Assembly (NCBI GenBank): GCA_916610825.1
Contig: OU744452.1
Location: forward strand, 9,642,021-9,706,020
DNA: 64,000 nt
Direction: 5' to 3'
DNA from: Haliclystus octoradiatus
Taxonomy: Eukaryota; Cnidaria; Staurozoa; Stauromedusae; Haliclystidae
Of the stretch, positions 1 to 64,000 are shown in pieces; the stretch's first letter is position 1, and each line of letters begins with the position of its first letter. The notes beneath the pieces were generated by a model. That model saw nothing but the letters and a program-made list of their open reading frames with translations. It ran no database searches and was not told the origin of the DNA. A program made the translations under genes and the position numbers.

Positions 1-3000
1 TAACTGATCAACCAACCACTGTTGCTGATAACACCACTACCGAAACACCTTCTACCACGTATATTCCAACTACAACCGAAAAACCAAGCACTGTAACTGA
101 TCAACCGACCACTGTTGCTGATAACACCACTACAGAAACACCATCTACTACATTAGCTCCAACAACAACAGAGAAGCCAAGCACTGTTACTGAAGAACCA
201 ACCACTATTGCTGATAACACCACTACTGAAACACCTTCTACCTCCTCCGGTCCAACAACAACAGAGAAGCCAAGCACTATAACTGATCAACCAACCACTA
301 TTGCTGATAACACCACTACAGAAACACCTTCTACCACGTATATTCCAACTACAACCGAACAACCAAGCACTGTAACTGATCAACCGACCACTGTTGCTGA
401 TAACACCACTACAGAAACACCATCTACTACATTAGCTCCAACAACGACAGAGAAGCCAAGCACTGTTACTGAAGAACCAACCACTATTGCTGATAACACC
501 AATACCGAAACACCTTCTACCTCATCCGGTTCAACAACAACAGAGAAGCCAAGCACTATAACTGATCAACCAACCACTATTGCTGATAACACCACTACAG
601 AAACACCATCTACCACGTATGCACCATCTACAACTGAAAAACCAAGTACTATAACTGATCAACCGACCACTGTTGCTGATAATACCACTACAGAAACACC
701 ATCTACCACTTATGTTCCCACTACAACCGAAAAGCCAAGCACTGTAACTGATCAACCAACCACCTTTGCTGACAACACCACTACCGAAACACCTTCTACC
801 TCCTCCGCTCCAACAACAACAGAGAAGCCAAGCACTGTTACTGATCAACCAACCACGATAGCTGATAACACCACTACAGAAACACCATCTACTACATTAG
901 CTCCAACAACAACAGAGAAGCCAAGCACCGTAACTGATCAGCCAACCACTATTGCTGATAACACCACTAGCGAAACACCTTCTACCTCATCAGCTCCAAC
1001 AACAACAGAAAAGCCAAGCACTATAACTGATCAACCAACCACTGTTGCTGATAACACCACTACCGAAACACCTTCTACCACGTATATTCCAACTACAACC
1101 GAACAACCAAGCATTGTAACTGATCAACCGACCACTGTTGCTGATAACACCACTACAGAAACACCATCTACTACATTAGCTCCAACAACAACAGAGAAGC
1201 CAAGCACTGTTACTGAAGAACCAACCACTATTGCTGATAACACCACTACAGAAACACCATCTACTACATTAGCTCCAACAACAACAGAGAAGCCAAGCAC
1301 TATAACTGATCAACCAACCACTGTTGCTGATAACACCACTACCGAAACACCTTCTACCACGTATATTCCAACTACAACCGAACAACCAAGCACTGTAACT
1401 GATCAACCGACCACTGTTGCTGATAACACCACTACAGAAACACCATCTACTACATTAGCTCCAACAACAACAGAGAAGCCAAGCACTGTTACTGAAGAAC
1501 CAACCACTATTGCTGATAACACCACTACCGAAACACCTTCTACCACGTATGCTCCATCTACAACTGAAAAACCAAGTACTATAACTGATCAACCGACCAC
1601 TGTTGCTGATAATACCACTACAGAAACACCATCTACCACTTATGTTCCCACTACAACCGAAAAGCCAAGCACTGTAACTGATCAACCAACCACCTTTGCT
1701 GACAACACCACTACCGAAACACCTTCTACCTCCTCCGCTCCAACAACAACAGAGAAGCCAAGCACTGTTACTGATCAACCAACCACGATAGCTGATAACA
1801 CCACTACAGAAACACCATCTACTACATTAGCTCCAACAACAACAGAGAAGCCAAGCACCGTAACTGATCAGCCAACCACTATTGCTGATAACACCACTAG
1901 CGAAACACCTTCTACCTCATCAGCTCCAACAACAACAGAAAAGCCAAGCACTATAACTGATCAACCAACCACTGTTGCTGATAACACCACTACCGAAACA
2001 CCTTCTACCACGTATATTCCAACTACAACCGAACAACCAAGCACTGTAACTGATCAACCAACCACTATTGCTGATAACACCACTACAGAAACACCATCTA
2101 CTACATTAGCTCCAACAACAACAGAGAAGCCAAGCACTGTTACTGAAGAACCAACCACTATTGCTGATAACACCACTACCGAAACACCTTCTACCTCCTC
2201 CGGTTCAACAACAACAGAGAAGCCAAGCACTATAACTGATCAACCAACCACTATTGCTGATAACACCACTACAGAAACACCATCTACCACGTATGCTCCA
2301 TCTACAACTGAAAATTCAAGTACTATAACTGATCAACCGACAACAGTTGCTGATAATACCACTACAGAAACACCATCTACCACTTATGTTCCCACTACAA
2401 CCGAAAAGCCAAGCACTGTAACTGATCAACCAACCACCTTTGCTGACAACACCACTACCGAAACACCTTCTACCTCCTCCGCTCCAACAACAACAGAGAA
2501 GCCAAGCACTGTTACTGATCAACCAACCACGATAGCTGATAACACCACTACAGAAACACCATCTACTACATTAGCTCCAACAACAACAGAGAAGCCAATC
2601 ACCGTAACTAATCAGCCAGCCACTATTGCTGATAACACCACTAGCGAAACACCTTCTACCTCATCAGCTCCAACAACAACCGAAAAGCCAAGCACTATAA
2701 CTGATCAACCAACCACTGTTGCTGATAACACCACTACCGAAACACCTTCTACCACGTATATTCCAACTACAACCGAACAACCAAGCACTGTAACTGATCA
2801 ACCGACCACTGTTGCTGATAACACCACTACAGAAACACCATCTACTACATTAGCTCCAACAACAACAGAGAAGCCAAGCACTGTTACTGAAGAACCAATC
2901 ACTATTGCTGATAACACTACTATCGAAACACCTTCTACCTCCTCCGGTTCAACAACAACAGAGAAGCCAAGCACTATAACTGATCAACCAACCACTATTG

Positions 3001-6000
3001 CTGATAACACCACTACAGAAACACCATCTACCACGTATGCTCCATCTACAACTGAAAAACCAAGTACTATAACTGATCAACCGACCACTGTTGCTGAAAA
3101 CACCACTACAGAAACACCATCTACTACATTAGCTCCAACAACAACAGAGAAGCCAAGCACCGTAACTGATCAGCCAACCACTATTGCTGATAACACCACT
3201 AGCGAAACACCTTCTACCTCATCAGCTCAAACAACAACAGAAAAGCCAAGCACTATAACTGATCAACCAACCACTGTTGCTGATAACACCACTACCGAAA
3301 CACCTTCTACCACGTATATTCCAACTACAACCGAACAACCAAGCACTGTAACTGATCAACCGACCACTGTTGCTGATAACACCACTACAGAAACACCATC
3401 TACTACATTAGCTCCAACAACAACAACAGAGAAGCCAAGCACTGTTACTGAAGAACCAACCACTATTGCTGATAACACCACTACCGAAACACCTTCTACC
3501 TCCTCCGGTCCAACAACAACAGAGAAGCCAAGCACTATAACTGATCAACCAACCACTATTGCTGATAACACCACTACAGAAACACCATCTACCACGTATG
3601 CTCCATCTACAACTGAAAATTCAAGTACTATAACTGATCAACCGACAACAGTTGCTGATAATACCACTACAGAAACACCATCTACCACTTATGTTCCCAC
3701 TACAACCGAAAAGCCAAGCACTGTAACTGATCAACCAACCACCTTTGCTGACAACACCACTACCAAAACACCTTCTACCTCCTCCGCTCCAACAACAACA
3801 GAGAAGCCAAGCACTGTTACTGATCAACCAACCACGATAGCTGATAACACCACTACAGAAACACCATCTACTACATTAGCTCCAACAACAACAGAGAAGC
3901 CAATCACCGTAACTGATCAGCCAGCCACTATTGCTGATAACACCACTAGCGAAACACCTTCTACCTCATCAGCTCCAACAACAACCGAAAAGCCAAGCAC
4001 TATAACTGATCAACCAACCACTGTTGCTGATAATACCACTACAGAAACACCATCTACCACTTATGTTCCCACTACAACCGAAAAGCCAAGCACTGTAACT
4101 GATCAACCAACCACGATTGCTGATAACACCACTACAGAAACACCATCTACTACATTAGCTCCAACAACAACAGAGAAGCCAAGCACTGTAACTGATCAAC
4201 CAACCACTATTGCTGATAACACCACTAGCGAAACACCTTCTACGTCATCAGCTCCAACAACAACAGAAAAGCCAAGCACTATTACTGATCAACCAACCAC
4301 AATTGCTGATAACACCACTACAGAAACACCATCTACCACGTATGCTCCATCTACAACTGAAAAACCAAGTACTATAACTGATCAACCGACAACTGTTGCT
4401 GATAATACCACTACAGAAACACCATCTACCACTTATGTTCCCACTACAACCGAAAAGCCAAGCACTGTAACTGATCAACCAACCACGATTGCTGATAACA
4501 CCACTACAGAAACACCATCTACTACATTAGCTCCAACAACAACAGAGAAGCCAAGCACTGTAACTGATCAACCAACCACTATTGCTGATAACACCACTAG
4601 CGAAACACCTTCTACGTCATCAGCTCCAACAACAACAGAAAAGCCAAGCACTATTACTGATCAACCAACCACAATTGCTGATAACACCACTACAGAAACA
4701 CCATCTACCACGTATGCTCCATCTACAACTGAAAAACCAAGTACTATAACTGATCAACCGACAACTGTTGCTGATAATACCACTACAGAAACACCATCTA
4801 CCACTTATATTCCCACTACAACCGAAAAGCCAAGCACTGTAACTGATCAACCAACCACCTTTGCTGACAACACCACTACCGAAACACCTTCTACCTCCTC
4901 CGCTCCAACAACAACAGAGAAGCCAAGCACTGTTACTGATCAACCAACCACGATTGCTGATAACACCACTACAGAAACACCATCTACTACATTAGCTCCA
5001 ACAACAACAGAGAAGCCAAGCACCGTAACTGATCAGCCAACCACTATTGCTGATAACACCACTAGCGAAACACCTTCTACCTCATCAGCTCCAACAACAA
5101 CAGAAAAGCCAAGCACTATAACTGATCAACCAACCACTGTTGCTGATAACACCACTACCGAAACACCTTCTACTACATTAGCTCCAACAACAACAGAAAA
5201 GCCAAGCACTATTACTGATCAACCAACCACGATTGCTGATAACACCACTACAGAAACACCATCTACCACGTATGCTCCATCTACAACTGAAAAACCAAGT
5301 ACTATAACTGATCAACCGACCACTGTTGCTGATAATACCTCTACAGAAACACCATCTACCACTTATGTTCCCACTACAACCGAAAAGCCAAGCACTGTAA
5401 CTGATCAACCAACCACTATTGCTGATAACACCACTAGCGAAACACCTTCTACGTCATCAGCTCTAACAACAACAGAAAAGCCAAGCACTATTACTGATCA
5501 ACCAACCACGATTGTTGATAACACCACTACAGAAACACCATCTACCACGTATGCTCCATCTACAACTGAAAAACCAAGTACTATAACTGATCAACCGACC
5601 ACTGTTGCTGATAATACCACTACAGAAACACCATCTACCACTTATGTTCCCACTACAACCGAAAAGCCAAGCACTGTAACTGATCAACCAACCACCTTTG
5701 CTGACAACACCACTACTGAAACACCTTCTACCTCCTCCGCTCCAACAACAACAGAGAAGCCAAGCACTGTTACTGATCAACCAACCACGATTGCTGATAA
5801 CACCACTACAGAAACACCATCTACTACATTAGCTCCAACAACAACAGAGAAGCCAAGCACTGTAACTGATCAACCAACCACTATTGCTGATAACACCACT
5901 AGCGAAACACCTTCTACGTCATCAGCTCCAACAACAACAGAAAAGCCAAGCACTATTACTGATCAACCAACCACAATTGCTGATAACACCACTACAGAAA

Positions 6001-9000
6001 CACCATCTACCACGTATGCTCCATCTACAACTGAAAAACCAAGTACTATAACTGATCAACCGACAACTGTTGCTGATAATACCACTACAGAAACACCATC
6101 TACCACTTATATTCCAACTACAACCGAAAAGCCAAGCACTGTAACTGATCAACCAACCACCATTGCTGATAACACCACTACCGAAACACCTTCTACCTCC
6201 TCCGCTCCAACAACAACAGAGAAGCCAAGCACTGTTACTGATCAACCAACCACGATTGCTGATAACACCACTACAGAAACACCATCTACTACATTAGCTC
6301 CAACAACAACAGAGAAGCCAAGCACCGTAACTGATCAGCCAACCACTATTGCTGATAACACCACTAGCGAAACACCTTCTACCTCATCAGCTCCAACAAC
6401 AACAGAAAAGCCAAGCACTGTAACTGATCAACCAACCACTGTTGCTGATAACACCACTACCGAAACACCTTCTACTACATTAGCTCCAACAACAACAGAG
6501 AAGCCAAGCACTGTAACTGATCAACCAACCACGATTGCTGATAATACCACTACAGAAACACCATCTACTACATTAGCTCCAACAACAACAGAGAAGCCAA
6601 GCACCGTAACTGATCAACCAACCACCTTTGCTGACAACACCACTACCGAAACACCTTCTACCTCCTCCGCTCCCACAACAACAGAGAAGCCAAGCACTGT
6701 TACTGATCAACCAACCACTGTTGCTGATAACACCACTACCGAAACACCTTCTACCACGTATATTCCAACTACAACCGAACAACCAAGCACTGTAACTGAT
6801 CAACCGACCACTGTTGCTGATAACGCCACTACAGAAACACCATCTACTACATTAGCTCCAACAACAACAGAGAAGCCAAGCACTGTAACTGATCAACCAA
6901 CCACTATTGCTGATAACACCACTACCGAAACACCTTCTACCTCCTCTGCTCCCACAACAACAGAGAAGCCAAGCACTGTTACTGATCAACCAACCACTGT
7001 TGCTGATAACACCACTACCGAAACACCTTCTACCACGTATATTCCAACTACAACCGAACAACCAAGCACTGTAACTGATCAACCAACCACTGTTGCTGAT
7101 AACACCACTACCGAAACACCTTCTACCACGTATATTCCAACTACAACCGAACAACCAAGCACTGTAACTGATCAACCGACCACTGTTGCTGATAACACCA
7201 CTACAGAAACACCATCTACTACATTAGCTCCAACAACAACAGAGAAGCCAAGCACTGTAACTGATCAACCAACCACTATTGCTGATAACACCACTAGCGA
7301 AACACCTTCTACGTCATCAGCTCCAACAACAACAGAGAAGCCAAGCACTGTTACTGATCAACCAACCACCTTTGCTGACAACACCACTACCGAAACACCT
7401 TCTACCTCCTCCGCTCCCACAACAACAGAGAAGCCAAGCACTGTTACTGATCAACCAACCACTGTTGCTGATAACACCACTACCGAAACACCTTCTACCA
7501 CGTATATTCCAACTACAACCGAACAACCAAGCACTGTAACTGATCAACCGACCACTGTTGCTGATAACGCCACTACAGAAACACCATCTACTACATTAGC
7601 TCCAACAACAACAGAGAAGCCAAGCACTGTAACTGATCAACCAACCACTATTGCTGATAACACCACTACCGAAACACCTTCTACCTCCTCTGCTCCCACA
7701 ACAACAGAGAAGCCAAGCACTGTAACTGATCAACCAACCACTATTGCTGATAACACCACTAGCGAAACACCTTCTACGTCATCAGCTCCAACAACAACAG
7801 AGAAGCCAAGCACTGTTACTGATCAACCAACCACTGTTGCTGATAACACCACTACCGAAACACCTTCTACCACGTATATTCCAACTACAACCGAACAACC
7901 AAGCACTGTAACTGATCAACCGACCACTGTTGCTGACAACACCACTACCGAAACACCTTCTACCTCCTCCGCTCCAACAACAACAGAGAAGCCAAGCACT
8001 GTTACTGATCAACCAACCACTGTTGCTGATAACACCACTACCGAAACACCTTCTACCACGTATATTCCAACTACAACCGAACAACCAAGCACTGTAACTG
8101 ATCAACCGACCACTGTTGCTGATAACACCACTACAGAAACACCATCTACTACATTAGCTCCAACAACAACAGAGAAGCCAAGCACTGTAACTGATCAACC
8201 AACCACTATTGCTGATAACACCACTAGCGAAACACCTTCTACGTCATCAGCTCCAACAACAACAGAGAAGCCAAGCACTGTTACTGATCAACCAAGCACT
8301 ATTGCTGATAACACCACTACCGAAACACCTTCTACCTCCTCCGGTCCAACAACAACAGAGAAGCCAAGCACTATAACTGATCAACCAACCACCTTTGCTG
8401 ACAACACCACTACCGAAACACCTTCTACCTCCTCCGCTCCAAGAACAACAGAGAAGCCAAGCACTGTTACTGATCAACCAACCACTGTTGCTGATAACAC
8501 CACTACCGAAACACCTTCTGCCACGTATATTCCAACTACAACCGAACAACCAAGCACTGTAACTGATCAACCGACCACTGTTGCTGATAACACCACTACA
8601 GAAACACCATCTACTACATTAGCTCCAACAACAACAGAGAAGCCAAGCACTGTTACTGAAGAACCAACCACTATTGCTGATAACACCACTACCGAAACAC
8701 CTTCTACCTCCTCCGGTCCAACAACAACAGAGAAGCCAAGCACTATAACTGATCATCCAACCACTATTGCTGATAACACCACTAGCGAAACACCTTCTAC
8801 CTCATCAGCTCCAACAACAACACGAAATCCAAGCACTATAACTGATCAACCAACCACTGTTGCTGATAACACCACTACCGAAACACCTTCTACTACATTA
8901 GCTCCAACAACAACAGAGAAGCCAAGCACTGTAACTGATCAACCAACCACTATTGCTGATAACACCACTAGCGAAACACCTTCTACGTCATCAGCTCCAA

Positions 9001-12000
9001 CAACAACAGAAAAGCCAAGCACTATTACTGATCAACCAACCACGATTGCTGATAACACTACTACAGAAACACCATCTACTACATTTGCTCAAACAACAAC
9101 AGAGAAGCCAAGCACCGTAACTGATCAGCCAACCACTATTGCTGATAACACCACTAGCAAAACACCTTCTACCTCATCAGCTCCAACAACAACAGAAAAG
9201 CCAAGCACTATAACTGATCAACCAACCACTGTTGCTGATAATACCACTACAGAAACACCATCTACCACTTATGTTCCCACTACAACCGAAAAGCCAAGCA
9301 CTGTAACTGATCAACCAACCACCTTTGCTGACAACACCACTACCGAAACACCTTCTACCTCCTCCCCTCCAACAACAACAGAGAAGCCAAGCACTGTTAC
9401 TGATCAACCAACCACTATTGCTGATAACACTACTACAGAAACACCATCTACCACGTATGTTCCAACTACAACCGAAAATCCAAGCACTATAACTGATCAG
9501 CCAACCACTATTGCTGATAACACTACTACAGAAACACCATCTACTACATTTGCTCAAACAACAACAGAAAATCCAAGCACTATTACTGATCAACCAACCA
9601 CGATTGCTGATAACACCACTACAGAAACACCATCTACTACATTAGCTCCAACAACAACAGAGAAGCCAAGCACTGTTACTGAAGAACCAACCACTATTGC
9701 TGATAACACCACTACCGAAACACCTTCTACCTCCTCCGGTCCAACAACAACAGAGAAGCCAAGCACTATAACTGATCAACCAACCACGATTGCTGATAAC
9801 ACCACTACCGCAGCACCTTCTACTACATTAGCTCCAACAACAACAGAAAAGCCAAGCACTGTAACTGATCAACCAACCACGATTGCTGATAACACCACTA
9901 CTGAAACACCTTCTACTACATTAGCTCCAACAACAACAGAGAAGCCAAGCACTGTAACTGATCAACCAACCACTATTGCTGATAACACCACTAGCGAAAC
10001 ACCTTCTACGTCATCAGCTCCAACAACAACAGAGAAGCCAAGCACTGTTACTGATCAACCAACCGCTGTTGCTGATAACACCACTACCGAAACACCTTCT
10101 ACCACGTATATTCCAACTACAACCGAACAACCAAGCACTGTAACTGATCAACCGACCACTGTTGCTGACAACACCACTACCGAAACACCTTCTACCTCCT
10201 CCGCTCCAACAACAACAGAGAAGCCAAGCACTGTTACTGATCAACCAACCACTGTTGCTGATAACACCACTACCGAAACACCTTCTACCACGTATATTCC
10301 AACTACAACCGAACAACCAAGCACTGTAACTGATCAACCGACCACTGTTGCTGATAACACCACTACAGAAACACCATCTACTACTTTAGCTCCAACAACA
10401 ACAGAGAAGCCAAGCACTGTAACTGATCAACCAACCACTATTGCTGATAACACCACTAGCGAAACACCTTCTACCTCATCAGCTCCAATAACAACAGAAA
10501 AGCCAAGCACTATAACTGATCAACCAACCACTGTTGCTGATAATACCACTACAGAAACACCATCTACTACATTAGCTCCAACAACAACAGAGAAGCCAAG
10601 CACTGTTACTGAAGAACCAACCACTATTGCTGATAACACCACTACCGAAACACCTTCTACCTCCTCCGGTCCAACAACAACAGAGAAGCCAAGCACTATA
10701 ACTGATCAACCAACCACGATTGCTGATAACACCACTACCGCAGCACCTTCTACTACAATAGCTCCAACAACAACAGAGAAGCCAAGCACTGTTACTGATC
10801 AACCAACCACTGTTGCTGATAACACCACTACCGAAACACCTTCTACCACGTATATTCCAACTACAACCGAACAACCAAGCACTGTAACTGATCAACCGAC
10901 CACTGTTGCTGACAACACCACTACCGAAACACCTTCTACCTCCTCCGCTCCAACAACAACAGAGAAGCCAAGCACTGTTACTGATCAACCAACCACTGTT
11001 GCTGATAACACCACTACCGAAACACCTTCTACCACGTATATTCCAACTACAACCGAACAACCAAGCACTGTAACTGATCAACCGACCACTGTTGCTGATA
11101 ACACCACTACAGAAACACCATCTACTACATTAGCTCCAACAACAACAGAGAAGCCAAGCACTGTAACTGATCAACCAACCACTATTGCTGATAACACCAC
11201 TAGCGAAACACCTTCTACGTCATCAGCTCCAACAACAACAGAGAAGCCAAGCACTGTTACTGATCAACCAACCACTATTGCTGATAACACCACTACCGAA
11301 ACACCTTCTACCTCCTCCGGTCCAACAACAACAGAGAAGCCAAGCACTATAACTGATCAACCAACCACCTTTGCTGACAACACCACTACCGAAACACCTT
11401 CTACCTCCTCCGCTCCAACAACAACAAAGAAGCCAAGCACTGTTACTGATCAACCAACCACTGTTGCTGATAACACCACTACCGAAACACCTTCTACCAC
11501 GTATATTCCAACTACAACCGAACAACCAAGCACTGTAACTGATCAACCGACCACTGTTGCTGATAACACCACTACAGAAACACCATCTACTACATTAGCT
11601 CCAACAACAACAGAGAAGCCAAGCACTGTAACTGATCAACCAACCACTATTGCTGATAACACCACTAGCGAAACACCTTCTACGTCATCAGCTCCAACAA
11701 CAACAGAGAAGCCAAGCACTGTTACTGATCAACCAACCACTATTGCTGATAACACCACTACCGAAACACCTTCTACCACGTATATTCCAACTACAACCGA
11801 ACAACCAAGCACTGTAACTGATCAACCGACCACTGTTGCTGATAACACCACTACAGAAACACCATCTACTACTTTAGCTCCAACAACAACAGAGAAGCCA
11901 AGCACTGTAACTGATCAACCAACCACTATTGCTGATAACACCACTAGCGAAACACCTTCTACCTCATCAGCTCCAACAACAACAGAAAAGCCAAGCACTA

Positions 12001-51000: not shown

Positions 51001-54000
51001 CCACTACAGAAACACCATCTACCACTTATGTTCCCACTACAACCGAAAAGCCAAGCACTGTAACTGATCAACCAACCACCTTTGCTGACAACACCACTAC
51101 CGAAACACCTTCTACCTCCTCCGGTTCAACAACAACAGAGAAGCCAAGCACTATAACTGATCAACCAACCACTATTGCTGATAACACCACTACCGAAACA
51201 CCTTCTACCACGTATATTCCAACTACAACCGAACAACCAAGCACTGTAACTGATCAACCGACCACTGTTGCTGATAACACCACTACGGAAACACCATCTA
51301 CTACATTAGCTCCAACAACAACAGAGAAGCCAAGCACTGTTACTGAAGAACCAACCACTATTGCTGATAACACCACTACCGAAACACCTTCTACCTCCTC
51401 CGGTCCAACAACAACAGAGAAGCCAAGCACTATAACTGATCAACCAACCACTATTGCTGATAACACCACTACAGAAACACCATCTACCACGTATGCTCCA
51501 TCTACAACTGAAAATTCAAGTACTATAACTGATCAACCGACAACAGTTGCTGATAATACCACTACAGAAACACCATCTACCACTTATGTTCCCACTACAA
51601 CCGAAAAGCCAAGCACTGTAACTGATCAACCAACCACCTTTGCTGACAACACCACTACCGAAACACCTTCTACCTCCTCCGCTCCAACAACAACAGAGAA
51701 GCCAAGCACTGTAACTGATCAACCAACCACTATTGCTGATAACACCACTACAGAAACACCATCTACTACATTAGCTCCAACAACAACAGAGAAGCCAATC
51801 ACCGTAACTAATCAGCCAGCCACTATTGCTGATAACACCACTAGCGAAACACCTTCTACCTCCTCCGCTCCAACAACAACAGAGAAGCCAAGCACTGTTA
51901 CTGATCAACCAACCACTGTTGCTGATAACACCACTACCGAAACACCTTCTACCACGTATATTCCAACTACAACCGAACAACCAAGCACTGTAACTGATCA
52001 ACCGACCACTGTTGCTGATAACACCACTACAGAAACACCATCTACTACATTAGCTCCAACAACAACAGAGAAGCCAAGCACTGTTACTGAAGAACCAACC
52101 ACTATTGCTGATAACACTACTACCGAAACACCTTCTACCTCCTCCGGTTCAACAACAACAGAGAAGCCAAGCACTATAACTGATCAACCAACCACTATTG
52201 CTGATAACACCACTACAGAAACACCATCTACCACGTATGCTCCATCTACAACTGAAAAACCAAGTACTATAACTGATCAACCGACCACTGTTGCTGATAA
52301 CACCACTACAGAAACACCATCTACTACATTAGCTCCAACAACAACAGAGAAGCCAAGCACCGTAACTGATCAGCCAACCACTATTGCTGATAACACCACT
52401 AGCGAAACACCTTCTACCTCATCAGCTCCAACAACAACAGAAAAGCCAAGCACTATAACTGATCAACCAACCACTGTTGCTGATAACACCACTACCGAAA
52501 CACCTTCTACCACGTATATTCCAACTACAACCGAACAACCAAGCACTGTAACTGATCAACCGACCACTGTTGCTGATAACACCACTACAGAAACACCATC
52601 TACTACATTAGCTCCAACAACAACAGAGAAGCCAAGCACTGTTACTGAAGAACCAACCACTATTGCTGATAACACCACTACCGAAACACCTTCTACCTCC
52701 TCCGGTCCAACAACAACAGAGAAGCCAAGCACTATAACTGATCAACCAACCACTATTGCTGATAACACCACTACAGAAACACCATCTACCACGTATGCTC
52801 CATCTACAACTGAAAATTCAAGTACTATAACTGATCAACCGACAACAGTTGCTGATAATACCACTACAGAAACACCATCTACCACTTATGTTCCCACTAC
52901 AACCGAAAAGCCAAGCACTGTAACTGATCTACCAACCACCTTTGCTGACAACACCACTACCGAAACACCTTCTACCTCCTCCGCTCCAACAACAACAGAG
53001 AAGCCAAGCACTGTTACTGATCAACCAACCACGATAGCTTATAACACCACTACAGAAACACCATCTACTACATTAGCTCCAACAACAACAGAGAAGCCAA
53101 TCACCGTAACTGATCAGCCAGCCACTATTGCTGATAACACCACTAGCGAAACACCTTCTACCTCATCAGCTCCAACAACAACCGAAAAGCCAAGCACTAT
53201 AACTGATCAACCAACCACTGTTGCTGATAACACCACTACCGAAACACCTTCTACCACGTATTTTCCAACTACAACCGAACAACCAAGCACTGTAACTGAT
53301 CAACCGACCACTGTTGCTGATAACACCACTACAGAAACACCATCTACTACATTAGCTCCAACAACAACAGAGAAGCCAAGCACTGTTACTGAAGAACCAA
53401 CCACTATTGCTGATAACACTACTACCGAAACACCTTCTACCTCCTCCGGTTCAACAACAACAGAGAAGCCAAGCACTATAACTGATCAACCAACCACTAT
53501 TGCTGATAACACCACTACAGAAACACCATCTACCACGTATGCTCCATCTACAACTGAAAAACCAAGTACTATAACTGATCAACCGACCACTGTTGCTGAT
53601 AACACCACTACAGAAACACCATCTACTACATTAGCTCCAACAACAACAGAGAAGCCAAGCACTGTAACTGATCAACCAACCACTATTGCTGATAACACCA
53701 CTAGCGAAACACCTTCTACGTCATCAGCTCCAACAACAACAGAAAAGCCAAGCACTATTACTGATCAACCAACCACGATTGCTGATAACACCACTACAGA
53801 AACACCATTTACCACGTATGCTCCATCTACAACTGAAAAACCAAGTACTATAACTGATCAACCGACCACTGTTGCTGATAATACCACTACAGAAACACCA
53901 TCTACCACTTATGTTCCCACTACAACCGAAAAGCCAAGCACTGTAACTGATGAACCAACCACCTTTGCTGACAACACCACTACCGAAACACCTTCTACCT

Positions 54001-57000
54001 CCTCCGCTCCAACAACAACAGAGAAGCCAAGCACTGTTACTGATCAACCAACCACGATTGCTGATAACACCACTACAGAAACACCTTCTACCACGTATAT
54101 TCCAACTACAACCGAAAAGCCAAGCACTGTAACTGATCAACCGACCACTGTTGCTGATAACACCACTACAGAAACACCATCTACTACATTAGCTCCAACA
54201 ACGACAGAGAAGCCAAGCACTGTTACTGAAGAACCAACCACTATTGCTGATAACACCACTACCGAAACACCTTCTACCTCCTCCGGTCCAACAACAACAG
54301 AGAAGCCAAGCACTGTAACTGATCAACCAACCACTATTGCTGATAACACCACTACAGAAACACCATCTACCACGTATGCTCCATCTACAACTGAAAAACC
54401 AAGTACTATAACTGATCAACCGACCACTGTTGCTGATAACACCACTACAGAAACACCATCTACTACATTAGCTCCAACAACGACAGAGAAGCCAAGCACT
54501 GTTACTGAAGAACCAACCACTATTGCTGATAACACCACTACCGAAACACCTTCTACCTCCTCCGGTTCAACAACAACAGAGAAGCCAAGCACTATAACTG
54601 ATCAACCAACCACTATTGCTGATAACACCACTACAGAAACACCATCTACCACGTATGCTCCATCTACAACTGAAAAACCAAGTACTATAACTGATCAACC
54701 GACCACTGTTGCTGATAATACCACTACAGAAACACCATCTACCACTTATGTTCCCACTACAACCGAAAAGGCAAGCACTGTAACTGATCAACCAACCACC
54801 TTTGCTGACAACACCACTACCGAAACACCTTCTACCTCCTCCGCTCCAACAACAACAGAGAAGCCAAGCACTGTTACTGATCAACCAACCACGATAGCTG
54901 ATAACACCACTACAGAAACACCATCTACTACATTAGCTCCAACAACAACAGAGAAGCCAAGCACTGTTACTGAAGAACCAACCACTATTGCTGATAACAC
55001 TACTACCGAAACACCTTCTACCTCCTCCGGTTCAACAACAACAGAGAAGCCAAGCACTATAACTGATCAACCAACCACTATTGCTGATAACACCACTACA
55101 GAAACACCATCTACCACGTATGCTCCATCTACAACTGAAAAACCAAGTACTATAACTGATCAACCGACCACTGTTGCTGATAACACCACTACAGAAACAC
55201 CATCTACTACATTAGCTCCAACAACAACAGAGAAGCCAAGCACTGTAACTGATCAACCAACCACTATTGCTGATAACACCACTAGCGAAACACCTTCTAC
55301 GTCATCAGCTCCAACAACAACAGAAAAGCCAAGCACTATTACTGATCAACCAACCACGATTGCTGATAACACCACTACAGAAACACCATTTACCACGTAT
55401 GCTCCATCTACAACTGAAAAACCAAGTACTATAACTGATCAACCGACCACTGTTGCTGATAATACCACTACAGAAACACCATCTACCACTTATGTTCCCA
55501 CTACAACCGAAAAGCCAAGCACTGTAACTGATCAACCAACCACCTTTGCTGACAACACCACTACCGAAACACCTTCTACCTCCTCCGCTCCAACAACAAC
55601 AGAGAAGCCAAGCACTGTTACTGATCAACCAACCACGATTGCTGATAACACCACTACAGAAACACCATCTACCACGTATACTCCAACTACAACCGAACAA
55701 CCAAGCACTGTAACTGATCAACCGACCACTGTTGCTGATAACACCACTACAGAAACACCATCTACTACATTAGCTCCAACAACGACAGAGAAGCCAAGCA
55801 CTGTTACTGAAGAACCAACCACTATTGCTGATAACACCACTACCGAAACACCTTCTACCTCCTCCGGTCCAACAACAACAGAGAAGCCAAGCACTATAAC
55901 TGATCAACCAACCACTATTGCTGATAACACCACTACAGAAACACCATCTACCACGTATGCTCCATCTACAACTGAAAAACCAAGTACTATAACTGATCAA
56001 CCGACCACTGTTGCTGATAACACCACTACAGAAACACCATCTACTACATTAGCTCCAACAACGACAGAGAAGCCAAGCACTGTTACTGAAGAACCAACCA
56101 CTATTGCTGATAACACCACTACCGAAACACCTTCTACCTCCTCCGGTTCAACAACAACAGAGAAGCCAAGCACTATAACTGATCAACCAACCACTATTGC
56201 TGATAACACCACTACAGAAACACCATCTACCACGTATGCTCCATCTACAACTGAAAAACCAAGTACTATAACTGATCAACCGACCACTGTTGCTGATAAT
56301 ACCACTACAGAAACACCATCTACCACTTATGTTCCCACTACAACCGAAAAGGCAAGCACTGTAACTGATCAACCAACCACCTTTGCTGACAACACCACTA
56401 CCGAAACACCTTCTACCTCCTCCGCTCCAACAACAACAGAGAAGCCAAGCACTGTTACTGATCAACCAACCACGATAGCTGATAACACCACTACAGAAAC
56501 ACCATCTACTACATTAGCTCCAACAACAACAGAGAAGCCAAGCACCGTAACTGATCAGCCAACCACTATTGCTGATAACACCACTAGCGAAACACCTTCT
56601 ACCTCATCAGCTCCAACAACAACAGAAAAGCCAAGCACTATAACTGATCAACCAACCACTGTTGCTGATAACACCACTACCGAAACACCTTCTACCACGT
56701 ATATTCCAACTACAACCGAACAACCAAGCACTGTAACTGATCAACCGACCACTGTTGCTGATAACACCACTACAGAAACACCATCTACTACATTAGCTCC
56801 AACAACGACAGAGAAGCCAAGCACTGTTACTGAAGAACCAACCACTATTGCTGATAACACCAATACCGAAACACCTTCTACCTCCTCCGGTTCAACAACA
56901 ACAGAGAAGCCAAGCACTATAACTGATCAACCAACCACTATTGCTGATAACACCACTACAGAAACACCATCTACCACGTATGCTCCATCTACAACTGAAA

Positions 57001-60000
57001 AACCAAGTACTATAACTGATCAACCGACCACTGTTGCTGATAATACCACTACAGAAACACCATCTACCACTTATGTTCCCACTACAACCGAAAAGCCAAG
57101 CACTGTAACTGATCAACCAACCACCTTTGCTGACAACACCACTACCGAAACACCTTCTACCTCCTCCGCTCCAACAACAACAGAGAAGCCAAGCACTGTT
57201 ACTGATCAACCAACCACGATAGCTGATAACACCACTACAGAAACACCATCTACTACATTAGCTCCAACAACAACAGAGAAGCCAATCTCCGTAACTGATC
57301 AGCCAGCCACTATTGCTGATAACACCACTAGCGAAACACCTTCTACCTCATCAGCTCCAACAACAACCGAAAAGCCAAGCACTATAACTGATCAACCAAC
57401 CACTGTTGCTGATAACACCACTACCGAAACACCTTCTACCACGTATTTTCCAACTACAACCGAACAACCAAGCACTGTAACTGATCAACCGACCACTGAT
57501 GCTGATAACACCACTACAGAAACACCATCTACTACATTAGCTCCAACAACAACAGAGAAGCCAAGCACTGTTACTGAAGAACCAACCACTATTGCTGATA
57601 ACACTACTACCGAAACACCTTCTACCTCCTCCGGTTCAACAACAACAGAGAAGCCAAGCACTATAACTGATCAACCAACCACTATTGCTGATAACACCAC
57701 TACAGAAACACCATCTACCACGTATGCTCCATCTACAACTGAAAAACCAAGTACTATAACTGATCAACCGACCACTGTTGCTGATAACACCACTACAGAA
57801 ACACCATCTACTACATTAGCTCCAACAACAACAGAGAAGCCAAGCACTGTAACTGATCAACCAACCACTATTGCTGATAACACCACTAGCGAAACACCTC
57901 CTACGTCATCAGCTCCAACAACAACAGAAAAGCCAAGCACTATTACTGATCAACCAACCACGATTGCTGATAACACCACTACAGAAACACCATTTACCAC
58001 GTATGCTCCATCTACAACTGAAAAACCAAGTACTATAACTGATCAACCGACCACTGTTGCTGATAATACCACTACAGAAACACCATCTACCACTTATGTT
58101 CCCACTACAACCGAAAAGCCAAGCACTGTAACTGATCAACCAACCACCTTTGCTGACAACACCACTACCGAAACACCTTCTACCTCCTCCGCTCCAACAA
58201 CAACAGAGAAGCCAAGCACTGTTACTGATCAACCAACCACGATTGCTGATAACACCACTACAGAAACACCTTCTACCACGTATATTCCAACTACAACCGA
58301 AAAGCCAAGCACTGTAACTGATCAACCAACCACTGTTGCTGATAACACCACTACAGAAACACCATCTACTACATTAGCTCCAACAACGACAGAGAAGCCA
58401 AGCACTGTTACTGAAGAACCAACCACTATTGCTGATAACACCACTACCGAAACACCTTCTACCTCCTCCGGTCCAACAACAACAGAGAAGCCAAGCACTA
58501 TAACTGATCAACCAACCACTATTGCTGATAACACCACTACAGAAACACCATCTACCACGTATGCTCCATCTACAAATGAAAAACCAAGTACTATAACTGA
58601 TCAACCGACCACTGTTGCTGATAACACCACTACAGAAACACCATCTACTACATTAGCTCCAACAACGACAGAGAAGCCAAGCACTGTTACTGAAGAACCA
58701 ACCACTATTGCTGATAACACCACTACCGAAACACCTTCTACCTCCTCCGGTTCAACAACAACAGAGAAGCCAAGCACTATAACTGATCAACCAACCACTA
58801 TTGCTGATAACACCACTACAGAAACACCATCTACCACGTATGCTCCATCTACAACTGAAAAACCAAGTACTATAACTGATCAACCGACCACTGTTGCTGA
58901 TAATACCACTACAGAAACACCATCTTCCACTTATGTTCCCACTACAACCGAAAAGCCAAGCACTGTAACTGATCAACCAACCACCTTTGCTGACAACACC
59001 ACTACCGAAACACCTTCTACCTCCTCCGCTCCAACAACAACAGAGAAGCCAAGCACTGTTACTGATCAACCAACCACGATAGCTGATAACACCACTACAG
59101 AAACACCATCTACTACATTAGCTCCAACAACAACAGAGACGCCAAGCACCGTAACTGATCAGCCAACCACTATTGCTGATAACACCACTAGCGAAACACC
59201 TTCTACCTCATCAGCTCCAACAACAACAGAAAAGCCAAGCACTATAACTGATCAACCAACCACTGTTGCTGATAACACCACTACCGAAACACCTTCTACC
59301 ACGTATATTCCAACTACAACCGAACAACCAAGCACTGTAACTGATCAACCGACCACTGTTGCTGATAACACCACTACAGAAACACCATCTACTACATTAG
59401 CTCCAACAACGACAGAGAAGCCAAGCACTGTTACTGAAGAACCAACCACTATTGCTGATAACACCAATACCGAAACACCTTCTACCTCCTCCGGTTCAAC
59501 AACAACAGAGAAGCCAAGCACTATAACTGATCAACCAACCACTATTGCTGATAACACCACTACAGAAACACCATCTACCACGTATGCTCCATCTACAACT
59601 GAAAAACCAAGTACTATAACTGATCAACCGACCACTGTTGCTGATAATACCACTACAGAAACACCATCTACCACTTATGTTCCCACTACAACCGAAAAGC
59701 CAAGCACTGTAACTGATCAACCAACCACCTTTGCTGACAACACCACTACCGAAACACCTTCTACCTCCTCCGCTCCAACAACAACAGAGAAGCCAAGCAC
59801 TGTTACTGATCAACCAACCAGGATAGCTGATAACACCACTACAGAAACACCATCTACTACATTAGCTCCAACAACAACAGAGAAGCCAAGCACCGTAACT
59901 GATCAGCCAACCACTATTGCTGATAACACCACTAGCGAAACACCTTCTACCTCATCAGCTCCAACAACAACAGAAAAGCCAAGCACTATAACTGATCAAC

Positions 60001-63000
60001 CAACCACTGTTGCTGATAACACCACTACCGAAACACCTTCTACCACGTATATTCCAACTACAACCGAACAACCAAGCACTGTAACTGATCAACCGACCAC
60101 TGTTGCTGATAACACCACTACAGAAACACCATCTACTACATTAGCTCCAACAACAACAGAGAAGCCAAGCACTGTTACTGAAGAACCAACCACTATTGCT
60201 GATAACACCACTACCGAAACACCTTCTACCTCCTCCGGTCCAACAACAACAGAGAAGCCAAGCACTATAACTGATCAACCAACCACTATTGCTGATAACA
60301 CCACTAGCGAAACACCTTCTACCTCATCAGCTCCAACAACAACCGAAAAGCCAAGCACTATAACTGATCAACCAACCACTGTTGCTGATAACACCACTAC
60401 CGAAACACCTTCTACCACGTATATTCCAACTACAACCGAACAACCAAGCACTGTAACTGATCAACCGACCACTGTTGCTGATAACACCACTAGAGAAACA
60501 CCATCTACTACATTAGCTCCAACAACAACAGAGAAGCCAAGCACTGTTACTGAAGAACCAACCACTATTGCTGATAACACTACTACCGAAACACCTTCTA
60601 CCTCCTCCGGTTCAACAACAACAGAGAAGCCAAGCACTATAACTGATCAACCAACCACTATTGCTGATAACACCACTACAGAAACACCATCTACCACGTA
60701 TGCTCCATCTACAACTGAAAAACCAAGTACTATAACTGATCAACCGACCACTGTTGCTGATAACACCACTACAGAAACACCATCTACTACATTAGCTCCA
60801 ACAACAACAGAGAAGCCAAGCATTGTTACTGAAGAACCAACCACTATTGCTGATAACACCACTACCGAAATACCTTCTACCTCCTCCGGTCCAACAACAA
60901 CAGAGAAGCCAAGCACTATAACTGATCAACCAACCACTATTGCTGATAACACCACTAGCGAAACACCTTCTACCTCATCAGCTCCAACAACAACCGAAAA
61001 GCCAAGCACTATAACTGATCAACCAACCACTGTTGCTGATAACACCACTACCGAAACACCTTCTACCACGTATATTCCAACTACAACCGAACAACAAAGC
61101 ACTGTAACTGATCAACCGACCACTGTTGCTGATAACACCACTACAGAAACACCATCTACTACATTAGCTCCAACAACAACAGAGAAGCCAAGCACTGTTA
61201 CTGAAGAACCAACCACTATTGCTGATAACACTACTACCGAAACACCTTCTACCTCCTCCGGTTCAACAACAACAGAGAAGCCAAGCACTATAACTGATCA
61301 ACCAACCACTATTGCTGATAACACCACTACAGAAACACCATCTACCACGTATGCTCCATCTACAACTGAAAAACCAAGTACTATAACTGATCAACCGACC
61401 ACTGTTGCTGATAACACCACTACAGAAACACCATCTACTACATTAGCTCCAACAACAACAGAAAAGCCAAGCACTGTAACTGATCAACCAACCACTATTG
61501 CTGATAACACCACTAGCGAAACACCTTCTACGTCATCAGCTCCAACAACAACAGAAAAGCCAAGCACTATTACTGATCAACCAACCACGATTGCTGATAA
61601 CACCACTACAGAAACACCATCTACCACGTATGCTCCATCTACAACTGAAAAACCAAGTACTATAACTGATCAACCGACCACTGTTGCTGATAATACCACT
61701 ACAGAAACACCATCTACCACTTATGTTCCCACTACAACCGAAAATCCAAGCACTGTAACTGATCAACCAACCACCTTTGCTGACAACACCACTACCGAAA
61801 CACCTTCTACCTCCTCCGCTCCAACAACAACAGAGAAGCCAAGCACTGTTACTGATCAACCAACCACGATTGCTGATAACACCACTACAGAAACACCATC
61901 TACTACATTAGCTCCAACAACAACAGAGAAGCCAAGCACTATAACTGATCAACCAACCACTGTTGCTGATAACACCACTACCGAAACACCTTCTACCACG
62001 TATATTCCAACTACAACCGAACAACCAAGCACTGTAACTGATCAACCGACCACTGTTGCTGATAACACCACTACAGAAACACCATCTACTACATTAGCTC
62101 CAACAACGACAGAGAAGCCAAGCACTGTTACTGAAGAACCAACCACTATTGCTGATAACACCACTACCGAAACACCTTCTACCTCCTCCGGTCCAACAAC
62201 AACAGAGAAGCCAAGCACTATAACTGATCAACCAACCACTATTGCTGATAACACCACTAGCGAAACACCTTCTACCTCATCAGCTCCAACCACAACCGAA
62301 AAGCCAAGCACTATAACTGATCAACCAACCATTGTTGCTGATAACACCACTACCGAAACACCTTCTACCACGTATATTCCAACTACAACCGAACAACCAA
62401 GCACTGTAACTGATCAACCGACCACTGTTGCTGATAACACCACTACAGAAACACCATCTACTACATTAGCTCCAACAACAACAGAGAAGCCAAGCACTGT
62501 TACTGAAGAACCAACCACTATTGCTGATAACACTACTACCGAAACACCTTCTACCTCCTCCGGTTCAACAACAACAGAGAAGCCAAGCACTATAACTGAT
62601 CAACCAACCACTATTGCTGATAACACCACTACAGAAACACCATCTACCACGTATGCTCCATCTACAACTGAAAAACCAAGTACTATAACTGATCAACCGA
62701 CCACTGTTGCTGATAACACCACTACAGAAACACCATCTACTACATTAGCTCCAACAACAACAGAAAAGCCAAGCACTGTAACTGATCAACCAACCACTAT
62801 TGCTGACAACACCACTAGCGAAACACCTTCTACGTCATCAGCTCCAACAACAACAGAAAAGCCAAGCACTATTACTGATCAACCAACCACGATTGCTGAT
62901 AACACCACTACAGAAACACCATCTACCACGTATGCTCCATCTACAACTGAAAAACCAAGTACTATAACTGATCAGCCGACCACTGTTGCTGATAATACCA

Positions 63001-64000
63001 ATACAGAAACACCATCTACCACTTATGTTCCCACTACAACCGAAAATCCAAGCACTGTAACTGATCAACCAACCACCTTTGCTGACAACACCACTACCGA
63101 AACACCTTCTACCTCCTCCGCTCCAACAACAACAGAGAAGCCAAGCACTGTTACTGATCAACCAACCACGATTGCTGATAACACCACTACAGAAACACCA
63201 TCTACTACATTAGCTCCAACAACAACAGAGAAGCCAAGCACTATAACTGATCAACCAACCACTGTTGCTGATAACACCACTACCGAAACACCTTCTACCA
63301 CGTATATTCCAACTACAACCGAACAACCAAGCACTGTAACTGATCAACCGACCACTGTTGCTGATAACACCACTACAGAAACACCATCTACTACATTAGC
63401 TCCAACAACGACAGAGAAGCCAAGCACTGTTACTGAAGAACCAACCACTATTGCTGATAACACCACTACCGAAACACCTTCTACCTCCTCCGGTTCAACA
63501 ACAACAGAGAAGCCAAGCACTATAACTGATCAACCAACCACTATTGCTGATAACACCACTACAGAAACACCATCTACCACGTATGCTCCATCTACAACTG
63601 AAAAACCAAGTACTATAACTGATCAACCGACCACTGTTGCTGATAACACCACTACAGAAACACCATCTACTACATTAGCTCCAACAACAACAGAAAAGCC
63701 AAGCACTGTAACTGATCAACCAACCACTATTGCTGACAACACCACTAGCGAAACACCTTCTACGTCATCAGCTCCAACAACAACAGAAAAGCCAAGCACT
63801 ATTACTGATCAACCAACCACGATTGCTGATAACACCACTACAGAAACACCATCTACCACGTATGCTCCATCTACAACTGAAAAACCAAGTACTATAACTG
63901 ATCAGCCGACCACTGTTGCTGATAATACCACTACAGAAACACCATCTACCACTTATGTTCCCACTACAACCGAAAATCCAAGCACTGTAACTGATCAACC
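1..64000 (+). CDS. Internal fragment of a giant mucin-like Thr/Pro/Ser-rich tandem-repeat protein, open at both ends
   Basis: The reading frame whose codons start at multiples of 3 (first full codon 3-5, last 63996-63998) runs across the window with no stop that I could see. It encodes about 21,330 residues as 688 units of 31. In each unit TDQPTT fills positions 1-6, ADNTT 8-12, ETPST 14-18, Pro 22, TTE 24-26 and PST 28-30. Thr is about 42% and Thr+Ser+Pro about 61%. I saw no Cys or Trp, and Met only at 26589 and 45375. Known mucin Pro/Thr/Ser domains have this composition and are densely O-glycosylated, secreted or surface-exposed, and extended. I therefore infer a mucin-like, gel-forming, glue or surface-coat protein. 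Start, signal peptide, terminal domains, promoter and introns all lie outside. The coding case rests on the 93-base period, one whole-codon indel in 688 units, abundant synonymous changes, and stops in nearly every unit of the other two forward frames. The family and organism are not identified. Confidence 0.9.
2304..2333 (+). other. ENSST variant with a second N-glycosylation sequon (first of ten)
   Basis: In a TYAPS unit the usual Glu-Lys-Pro-Ser-Thr is Glu-Asn-Ser-Ser-Thr (GAA AAT TCA AGT), with Asn at 2313-2315. Asn-Ser-Ser is a canonical N-glycosylation sequon, extra to the Asn-Thr-Thr at positions 10-12 of the unit. The same variant occurs with Asn codons at 3618, 28914, 30216, 33471, 34773, 47700, 49002, 51513 and 52815. 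There are two in R1, four in R2 and four in R3, and I saw none between 4.1 and 25 kb. Whether the sequons are used is unknown. Confidence 0.75.
3351..3446 (+). repeat. The single 96-bp unit, with one extra ACA codon
   Basis: This TLAPT-type unit has four ACA codons in a row after the Pro codon where its neighbours have three, giving 32 residues (TTTTEK). The unit start is at 3351 and the next is at 3447, not 3444. The equivalent units in the later copies, near 29.95 kb and 48.74 kb, have the normal three codons, so the insertion is private to this copy. Slippage within the short ACA run is the likely cause. It preserves the frame. Confidence 0.93.
4116..6480 (+). repeat. Local block with 4-, 10- and 14-unit periods
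   Basis: Same 31-codon unit, but the order of types differs from both flanks. Stretches recur at 372 bases (4248 against 4620), 930 bases (4248 against 5178) and 1302 bases (4620 against 5922). TYAPS, TYVPT and SSAPT units using acg tca tca dominate, and a plain TYIPT-Gln unit is rarer here than further on. It looks like a patchwork of short duplications between R1 and the next block. No separate gene is visible. Confidence 0.7.
8342..10478 (+). repeat. First copy of a 23-unit segment repeated 5,487 bp downstream
   Basis: About 2.14 kb here matches 13829-15965 at an offset of 5487 bases, exactly 59 units. Both copies carry TTFAQT units (aca ttt gct caa near 9081 and 14568), Lys for Glu in ACT AGC AAA, and Ser-Pro-Pro in place of Ser-Ala-Pro near 9364 and 14851. 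These rare marks make common descent clear. The copies differ by a few substitutions. Boundaries are good to about one unit. Confidence 0.8.
10205..11692 (+). repeat. 16-unit (1,488-bp) tandem duplication, copy 1
   Basis: Bases 10205-11692 are followed directly by a second copy at 11693-13180. Shared marks include TTT for TTA in a TLAPT unit (act act tta at 10382 and 11870), Ala-Ala for Glu-Thr (acc gca gca) near 10738 and 12226, and ACA ATA GCT near 10754 and 12242. The adjacency and whole-unit length fit an unequal crossover within the array. Confidence 0.8.
11693..13180 (+). repeat. 16-unit (1,488-bp) tandem duplication, copy 2
   Basis: Direct neighbour of the copy at 10205-11692. Private differences are small, for example ATA for GTA near 12650 and Glu for Asp in ACT GAA CAA near 13027. 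The duplication is therefore recent compared with divergence between unit types, which differ at many sites. Confidence 0.8.
13829..15965 (+). repeat. Second copy of the 23-unit segment (partner of 8342-10478)
   Basis: This matches the earlier segment unit for unit. Private changes here include Ile for Thr near 14695 and GCC for ACC near 14730 (Asn-Ala-Thr, which keeps the sequon). Similarity ends near 15965, where this copy continues with an SSGPT unit and the other with SSAPT. Confidence 0.8.
15967..18942 (+). repeat. 32-unit (2,976-bp) tandem duplication, copy 1
   Basis: This stretch matches 18943-21918 at an offset of 2976 bases, exactly 32 units or four 744-base repeats. Shared marks include Lys-Lys in ACA AAG AAG near 16450 and 19426, ACC AAA for ACC GAA near 17155 and 20131, and CCA ATC ACC (Ile for Ser) near 17574 and 20550. 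Boundaries are approximate to one unit. Confidence 0.8.
18943..21918 (+). repeat. 32-unit (2,976-bp) tandem duplication, copy 2
   Basis: Partner of 15967-18942. The copies differ by scattered single bases, for example TYIPT context acc gaa here against aca gaa near 17064. Its right end merges into the 744-base repeat region. Confidence 0.8.
21303..22046 (+). repeat. Reference copy of the 8-unit higher-order repeat (744 bp)
   Basis: The eight units start at 21303, 21396, 21489, 21582, 21675, 21768, 21861 and 21954. Their types in order are Val-TLAPT, Ile-SSGPT (with TEEP in place of TDQP), Ile-TYAPS, Val-TYVPT, Phe-SSAPT, Ile-TLAPT, Ile-SSAPT (with Thr13 as Ser), and Val-TYIPT. The eighth normally has Gln at position 27, but here that codon is CCA (Pro, near 22029). 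This order recurs through most of 17-63 kb and is the building block of the larger duplications. Confidence 0.9.
22977..26696 (+). repeat. Five consecutive 744-bp higher-order repeats
   Basis: The Val-TLAPT unit that opens each repeat starts at 22977, 23721, 24465, 25209 and 25953, and the next at 26697, so spacing is exactly 744 bases five times. Repeats 1-3 share the private change Pro to Leu (CTT at 23319, 24063, 24807) in the TYVPT unit and ACC to ATC (Asn-Ile-Thr) near 23565, 24309 and 25053. Repeats 4 and 5 lack both. This is the longest run of uninterrupted higher-order repeats that I could verify. Confidence 0.88.
25690..44100 (+). repeat. Large segment copy R2 (about 18.4 kb)
   Basis: Matches R3 (44470-63450) in order. 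The offset is 18786 bases (202 units) from the start to about 31.7 kb, 18042 (194 units) to about 36.9 kb, 19623 (211 units) to about 42.6 kb, and 19344 (208 units) to the end. Between these steps the two copies are identical apart from rare substitutions. Shared rare marks are Leu for Pro at 26241, Met for Lys at 26589, Phe in ACT TTT ACT near 31155, Leu for Gln near 34887 and Tyr for Asp near 34998. The first 4 kb from 26602 also matches R1. Confidence 0.88.
31068..31811 (+). repeat. Extra 8-unit repeat in R2, first of a pair
   Basis: R2 has two 744-base repeats in a row here (31068-31811 and 31812-32555), where R3 has one (49854-50597). R3 carries ACG ATA and GTA ACT marks of the first R2 repeat up to about 50500, then the SSGPT mark of the second R2 repeat from about 50550. 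The copies therefore differ by one crossover within about 50 bases. Confidence 0.82.
53377..54957 (+). repeat. 17-unit (1,581-bp) tandem duplication inside R3, copy 1
   Basis: Directly followed by copy 2 at 54958-56538. R2 has this stretch only once. The copies differ at a few sites: GAT GAA here against GAT CAA near 55530, GAA AAG here against GAA CAA near 55695, GTA against ATA near 54318, and TAT ATT against TAT ACT near 55680. The junction at about 54957 joins an Ile-TLAPT unit to a TEEP unit. Confidence 0.83.
54958..56538 (+). repeat. 17-unit (1,581-bp) tandem duplication inside R3, copy 2
   Basis: Second copy of 53377-54957, present only in R3. It ends where R3 resumes the R2 order, at the ACC GTA ACT GAT CAG mark near 56540 (R2 counterpart near 36920). 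Confidence 0.83.
62290..63219 (+). repeat. 10-unit (930-bp) tandem duplication, copy 1
   Basis: This stretch recurs 930 bases later, from about 63220 to the window end. Both copies carry CAG for CAA in a TDQP codon (near 62973 and 63903) and GAC for GAT in ATT GCT GAC (near 62799 and 63729). One difference is AAT for ACT near 63000, which destroys a sequon in copy 1. Copy 2 is cut by the window edge, so the full number of copies is unknown. Confidence 0.75.

Follow-up and report, generated by a model that had tools for sequence, protein, structure and literature searches.

Does a tandem repeat that stays open in one reading frame across an entire stretch of a stalked-jellyfish genome encode a protein, and if so, what kind of protein is it and how long might it be? 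The stretch analysed here, referred to as the window, comprises 64,000 nucleotides of Haliclystus octoradiatus (contig C8 of the assembly, OU744452.1, positions 9,642,021 to 9,706,020). Contig C8 holds 21,348,345 bases, and the genome searched amounts to 261.86 Mb in 33 contigs. Positions outside the window are given as contig position minus 9,642,020. We consider it fairly probable that the locus is a gene for a secreted PTS mucin-type glycoprotein, built from small 5' exons and one giant repeat exon whose coding capacity is no less than 55,265 residues and perhaps exceeds 100,000. In the same assembly, the contig with COX1 measures 18,316 bp and has eight TGA triplets inside that gene; a 4.3-kb piece has 38% G+C and one identified tRNA gene, for Trp. 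The published mitochondrion of the species has 18.3 kb and 38.3% G+C (PMC9975415).

The repeat and its reading frame

Exact translation of the whole window yielded no stop in the 21,332 codons of the forward frame that starts at base 3, and 420 to 2,552 stops in each of the five remaining frames. The first-pass annotation had claimed a stop-free forward frame of about 21,330 codons, a claim that an in-frame stop within the window would overturn, and exact translation revealed none. It had also described a single intronless frame, open at both ends and belonging to a protein larger than the window. Both points hold. In contiguous translation, the frame extends from -28,548 through 55,265 gap-free codons without a stop, up to an assembly gap of 500 N (137,248 to 137,747, + strand), and the unit stays in a single reading frame throughout this pre-gap part. 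The initial observation was right but understated, the array being larger than reported.

Within the window, the giant exon consists of an array of a 31-residue acidic PTS repeat (positions 3 to 64,000, + strand, both ends open), as characterized by exact translation, TRF, and unit divergence. TRF finds a single array filling the window, its periods being 279, 372, and 465 bp, corresponding to three, four, and five copies of a 93-bp (31-aa) unit. The consensus of 2,007 units is TEKPSTVTDQPTTIADNTTTETPSTTSAPTT. Each 31-mer contains approximately 15 Thr or Ser residues, and an N-x-S/T sequon occurs in 1,955 of the 2,007 units. The repeat is acidic, with Glu and Asp contributing 7.1% and 6.1% of unit residues, respectively. 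Excerpts of PMC2515642 define PTS mucins (the Muc class) by a Ser plus Thr content above 25%, at least four repeats, and PTS repeats covering more than one third of the length. Here, Ser and Thr account for 27,272 of the 55,265 pre-gap residues (49%) in a tandem array of 31-mers, which agrees with the class in composition and repeats. The same part holds 1,753 sequons and a single Cys. The mucin-like character proposed in the first-pass annotation is supported by these values, and its description of a pure Thr/Pro/Ser repeat gives way to that of an acidic PTS repeat flanked by basic end blocks.

Structural and domain predictions were obtained for samples of the array. AlphaFold2 modelled 186 array residues as strand-like at low confidence (mean pLDDT 51.2). 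A Pfam scan of 1,000 of the 21,332 window residues returned one match, SNAP-25 (E 4.5e-20), with no stretch passing on its own, and it was judged spurious. No Ig or FN3 domain, as in a titin-like muscle giant, was matched by Pfam in these 1,000 residues.

Coding selection among the repeat copies

Frame openness alone is weak evidence of coding, because 93 is a multiple of three and a stop-free unit stays open when copied. The decisive test lies in the pattern of divergence among copies. This pattern was scored on 2,007 units (402 distinct) located between -26,709 and approximately 164,000, with the gap excluded and irregularly spaced units left out. Mean unit identity to the consensus is 0.904, and differences from the consensus affect codon positions 1, 2, and 3 at 6.2, 4.2, and 18.4%, respectively.

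Changes were counted by comparing each distinct unit with its nearest commoner unit, leaving out the 60 of 401 distinct units that lie more than 2 nt away. This procedure identified 415 inferred changes, comprising 249 nonsynonymous, 166 synonymous, and no nonsense changes. Expected numbers, drawn from the spectrum of the same 415 changes, are 303.7, 101.2, and 10.1, respectively, and N/S is about 0.5 for copies that differ from a commoner one by at most 2 nt. The P values for the lack of nonsense changes (3.6e-5) and for the codon-position skew (2.6e-6) are rough because repeat copies are not independent. A cruder and weaker comparison considered which types of possible single change are seen at all: none of the 6 nonsense types, but 103 of the 197 nonsynonymous and 46 of the 76 synonymous ones (nonsense versus nonsynonymous, p 0.013; synonymous versus nonsynonymous, p 0.23). 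Irregular spacings in whole codons provide no separate test, since the anchors were sought in translation; the real frame evidence is the lack of any break wherever the sequence before and after the gap was read contiguously. The divergence pattern shows that the repeats are under coding selection.

A plain non-coding satellite, with a period that is a multiple of three by chance, would account for the arithmetic of the unit (93 = 3 x 31). The array also contains recurrent blocks of 7 to 8 units (up to 744 bp) and longer duplicated segments, as satellites do. Divergence blind to frame would be expected under this explanation. The codon-position skew and the complete lack of nonsense changes rule out such divergence, which makes a satellite of this kind hardly credible.

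Another explanation envisages a coding-looking array that is no longer expressed, that is, a former mucin exon expanding as a satellite. One frameshift in the array, described below, and transposable elements just past its 3' end are in keeping with such a history. The count of nonsense changes (0 of 415 against about 10 expected) and the N/S of about 0.5 speak for continued constraint, and the motif counts fit a single place, judged on the first 100 or so places listed. A 20-base pattern matching 94% of the units occurs 3,102 times in forward orientation and once in reverse across the genome, and the reversed-pattern control gave 0 occurrences. For this locus, 3,061 occurrences were extrapolated, close to the genome total. 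Taken together, loss of expression seems improbable.

A candidate second copy of the repeat on contig C2 (38,981,262 bases) was rejected. It consists of the single reverse match to the 20-base pattern, and the 1,220 surrounding bases contain stops in all six frames, with a longest open run of 72 aa.

Extent and integrity of the array

Beyond the gap, the array of the predicted mucin gene continues on the + strand from 137,750 to 276,556, where 46,268 codons end in a TGA. This segment was read contiguously to 194,000 and in spots beyond. The frame is in phase 2 before the gap and in phase 1 after it, and the 18,750 codons that directly follow the gap contain no stop in contiguous translation. 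The frame is broken by a 5-bp deletion at about 276,540, some 212.5 kb past the right end of the window. A 740-bp piece covering this site contains a repeat copy with the deletion, followed by the TGA at contig position 9,918,574 (276,536 to 276,556 for both, + strand). The shortened motif was found in one of 87 loci searched, and a degenerate form of it, one base longer, is absent from the window.

A last open block of 16,173 codons (276,525 to 325,046, + strand) ends in a TGA at contig positions 9,967,064 to 9,967,066. Its shifted phase is open wherever sampled, and its final 11,046 bp were read contiguously and are unbroken. Phase remains constant to contig position 9,917,880 and is shifted by one from 9,918,621. 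All 49 spots are open (22,940 bp sampled between contig positions 9,836,021 and 9,956,020, together with one 740-bp piece); two of them show two open frames, one of each pair matching the expected phase. Spots that agree in phase rule out a net shift between them, but paired shifts or an inserted stop could still lie in the intervals. The total span is 353,595 bp: the contiguous and spot reads cover approximately 256.8 kb, the gap takes up 500 bp, and the remaining 96.3 kb or so lies between the pieces read. Its three open blocks sum to 117,706 codons (55,265 + 46,268 + 16,173), gap excluded. An AATAAA motif lies 150 bp past the terminal stop. Farther along, between contig positions 9,972,149 and 9,986,020, frames resemble a LINE reverse transcriptase and Copia-type and Gypsy-type polyproteins, the types being judged by reading.

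Charge is distributed in blocks along this span. A 5' basic block of 505 aa (-28,224 to -26,710, + strand) contains 76 Lys or Arg and 8 Asp or Glu residues. The acidic middle contains 1,588 Lys or Arg and 7,183 Asp or Glu in 54,652 pre-gap residues, and 572 and 2,448, respectively, in 18,750 post-gap residues. At the 3' end, a basic block of 3,681 aa as far as read (314,001 to 325,046, + strand, its true start lying between 312,101 and 314,001) contains 496 Lys or Arg and 20 Asp or Glu. The end units differ from the 31-mer; most recur every 46 aa in the 5' block and every 52 aa in the 3' block. The 610-aa 5' part outside the array and the 3' block share approximately 49% identity with the low-complexity filter off. 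These two regions are likely akin, with composition adding to the identity.

From the open blocks, the locus appears to encode a protein at least 55,000 aa long, a figure that may exceed 100,000 provided the gene is intact. In this assembly, the 5-bp deletion truncates the frame. We tentatively entertain, at below even confidence, that an exon of approximately 350 kb yields a single chain exceeding 100,000 residues (117,706 codons in three open blocks), which would form a charge triblock with basic ends and a very long acidic mucin middle, and gel by charge without disulfides.

Assembly quality bears on this length. The sequenced library consisted of sheared DNA fragments averaging 12-20 kb (PMC9975415). 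The longest exact repeats, 4,911 bp in the pre-gap part and 4,428 bp in the 56 kb after the gap, are shorter than these fragments, and after the gap there are stretches up to 11.9 kb long that are 99.5% alike. For these reasons, the pre-gap array is probably correctly assembled and the post-gap array is less sure. Mis-assembly after the gap is conceivable, with near-identical stretches approaching the read length.

A further explanation agrees with the mucin reading and disputes the length. The gene would be real, but the 350-kb span would not be one polypeptide, either because the allele ends at the deletion or because the array was mis-joined or inflated near the gap. Working alleles would then be shorter and variable in length, like human mucin VNTRs. 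The gap inside the array, the frame-breaking deletion, and the near-identical stretches of up to 11.9 kb lend weight to this account, and the polishing of the assembly with short reads (PMC9975415) may involve mis-mapping in repeats. Human MUC12 offers a precedent, with alleles of 4,677 to 23,080 aa in the excerpted preprint (PMC13345508). On the opposite side, 55,265 codons are free of gaps, exact repeats are shorter than the sequenced fragments, and the segment past the deletion is open wherever sampled. A shorter product of this kind is possible, if rather unlikely.

Gene model, relatives, and possible role

The favored model of a secreted PTS mucin includes predicted exons upstream of the array. 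Four such exons with phase-1 ends, all on the + strand (-31,485 to -31,375, -30,478 to -30,347, -30,092 to -30,021, and -29,572 to -29,390), would join the giant exon in frame. The contiguous open frame and a predicted splice would place the pre-gap part of the giant exon at -28,541 to 137,247 (+ strand). Farther upstream, a weak ab initio prediction of exon 1 that begins like a signal peptide (-34,569 to -34,470, + strand) has the best donor score of six candidate rows. The first-pass annotation had proposed extending into the flanks in search of the start, the signal peptide, and terminal domains. This extension led to a terminal stop and to candidate 5' exons, one of them with a chitin-binding-like domain, the signal-peptide exon being the weak candidate just described.

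The last of the four exons resembles a chitin-binding peritrophin-A domain (CBM_14), just under the Pfam cut-off of 22.1 bits (22.0 bits for the exon alone, 18.5 in the joined model). A phmmer search matched PDB chain 8in3_A, with an E value of 1.2e-4 for the whole sequence and 0.0093 for the best single domain. Apart from this CBM_14-like domain, Pfam identified no mucin end domains in the 5' exons scanned. The genome holds at least 105 CBM_14 matches at E <= 0.001, including clusters on C5 (7.066-7.070 Mb) and C4 (8.864-8.871 Mb), and none of the matches listed at this threshold lies on C8. The joined 5' exons, used as a query against the genome, gave four rows at this locus and six weak rows elsewhere (E 0.003-0.054), with no close paralogue among them. 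Judging by this domain, the predicted mucin is probably chitin-binding.

Several other open frames lie in the 5' flank. In an intronless frame of 972 aa (-41261 to -38346, + strand), a long N-terminal region precedes a 7tm_2 (secretin-type) receptor domain. Lysyl oxidase and SRCR domains occur in frames (-58847 to -48273, - strand) that may belong to one LOXL-type gene for a matrix cross-linking enzyme. A 552-aa frame (-83653 to -81998, + strand) matches a Mutator-like transposase, and two more match 6-pyruvoyl tetrahydropterin synthase (-93024 to -92479, - strand) and UPF0047 (-61201 to -60830, + strand).

In length, the array compares with the largest proteins known. Titin comprises approximately 35,000-38,000 aa and PKZILLA-1 45,212 aa; both are chains of folded domains, whereas a simple repeat dominates the predicted jellyfish protein. 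The 55,265 gap-free codons exceed both, which supports the placement among the very largest proteins in the first-pass annotation, and fall short of a predicted bacterial protein of approximately 85,000 aa. The 117,706-codon span, if one protein, would to our knowledge exceed any protein known. The 55,265 codons also surpass the giant ORF of Velamenicoccus archaeovorus, which, as excerpted, encodes 39,678 aa with 42 predicted transmembrane helices (PMC10066038), unlike the single simple repeat that dominates here. Omnitrophota hold some of the largest reported proteins, according to an excerpt of PMC11573180.

Closer likenesses are found among animal mucins, as far as the excerpted sources describe them. 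Drosophila Muc/Mur mucins with peritrophin-A (PerA) share the dominance of PTS repeats and the scarcity of other domains, along with a peritrophin-A-type domain for chitin binding that is borderline in the jellyfish (PMC2515642). Drosophila mucin-like proteins span 300-23,000 aa in the same source; the cnidarian array is longer and has an acidic middle and basic end blocks. Canonical mucin repeats are coded in one large exon according to the preprint excerpts, and human VNTR mucins, among which MUC12 has the longest exon, share this single large VNTR exon of PTS repeats (PMC13345508). With 55,265 gap-free codons, the jellyfish array is over twice as long as the longest MUC12 allele in that source. 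Jellyfish qniumucin is likewise a tandem-repeat mucin, with a repeat of 8 residues in the excerpt against 31 here (PMC6031612; repeat lengths compared, not sequences). No earlier report of this gene, or of giant cnidarian mucins, was found among the open-licence papers listed.

The working of the protein can be outlined from these features, with splicing, secretion, and glycosylation as predictions from sequence. The small 5' exons would encode a non-repeat N-terminal region that ends in the peritrophin-A-like domain, and this domain may anchor the chain to chitin or related glycans. The Thr/Ser residues and the N-sequon of each 31-mer would bear glycans and produce an extended, hydrated bottlebrush. 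Gel-forming mucins of the MUC2/MUC5 type possess Cys-rich VWD or cystine-knot ends and polymerize through disulfides. Polymerization of this type is not expected here, because the array is almost without cysteine (1 Cys in 55,265 residues). In addition, Pfam returned no VWD or cystine-knot match in the 5' exons scanned, and the last 60 residues contain no Cys. Basic ends and an acidic, almost Cys-free middle would let chains associate by charge and not by disulfides, and the charge-linked chains may form a mucus or adhesive gel of very long chains. Unequal exchange, with recurrent blocks of 7 to 8 units, probably enlarged the array between the basic repeats still present at each end.

Such a mucin could serve as mucus or as glue, because peritrophin-A proteins have been linked to adhesion (PMC6626399) and staurozoans attach by several glandular adhesive regions (PMC5088631), as excerpts of these sources indicate. 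In the former, the pedal disc of Exaiptasia shows enrichment of an invertebrate chitin-binding superfamily and up-regulation of a protein with 11 peritrophin-A domains, and peritrophin-A domains are proposed to act in pedal-disc adhesion in Hydra. The product could accordingly be an adhesive of the pedal disc or pads and not a general surface or gut mucus, an alternative that concerns role only. The genome contains many other CBM_14 matches, and we regard a dedicated adhesive as somewhat unlikely.

By its sequence features, the locus is an extreme new form of the already known PTS mucin gene class. If the gene is intact and expressed, its product would rank among the longest proteins known, and it raises the question of how a cell transcribes, translates, glycosylates, packs, and secretes such a chain. 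At assumed rates, the full span would require 2-4 h of transcription and 6.5 h of translation, and the extended chain would measure 29-42 micrometres. The array also shows coding selection at work in nature on thousands of copies of a repeat. This stalked-jellyfish gene further offers a candidate polymer of very long chains for mucus or adhesion.
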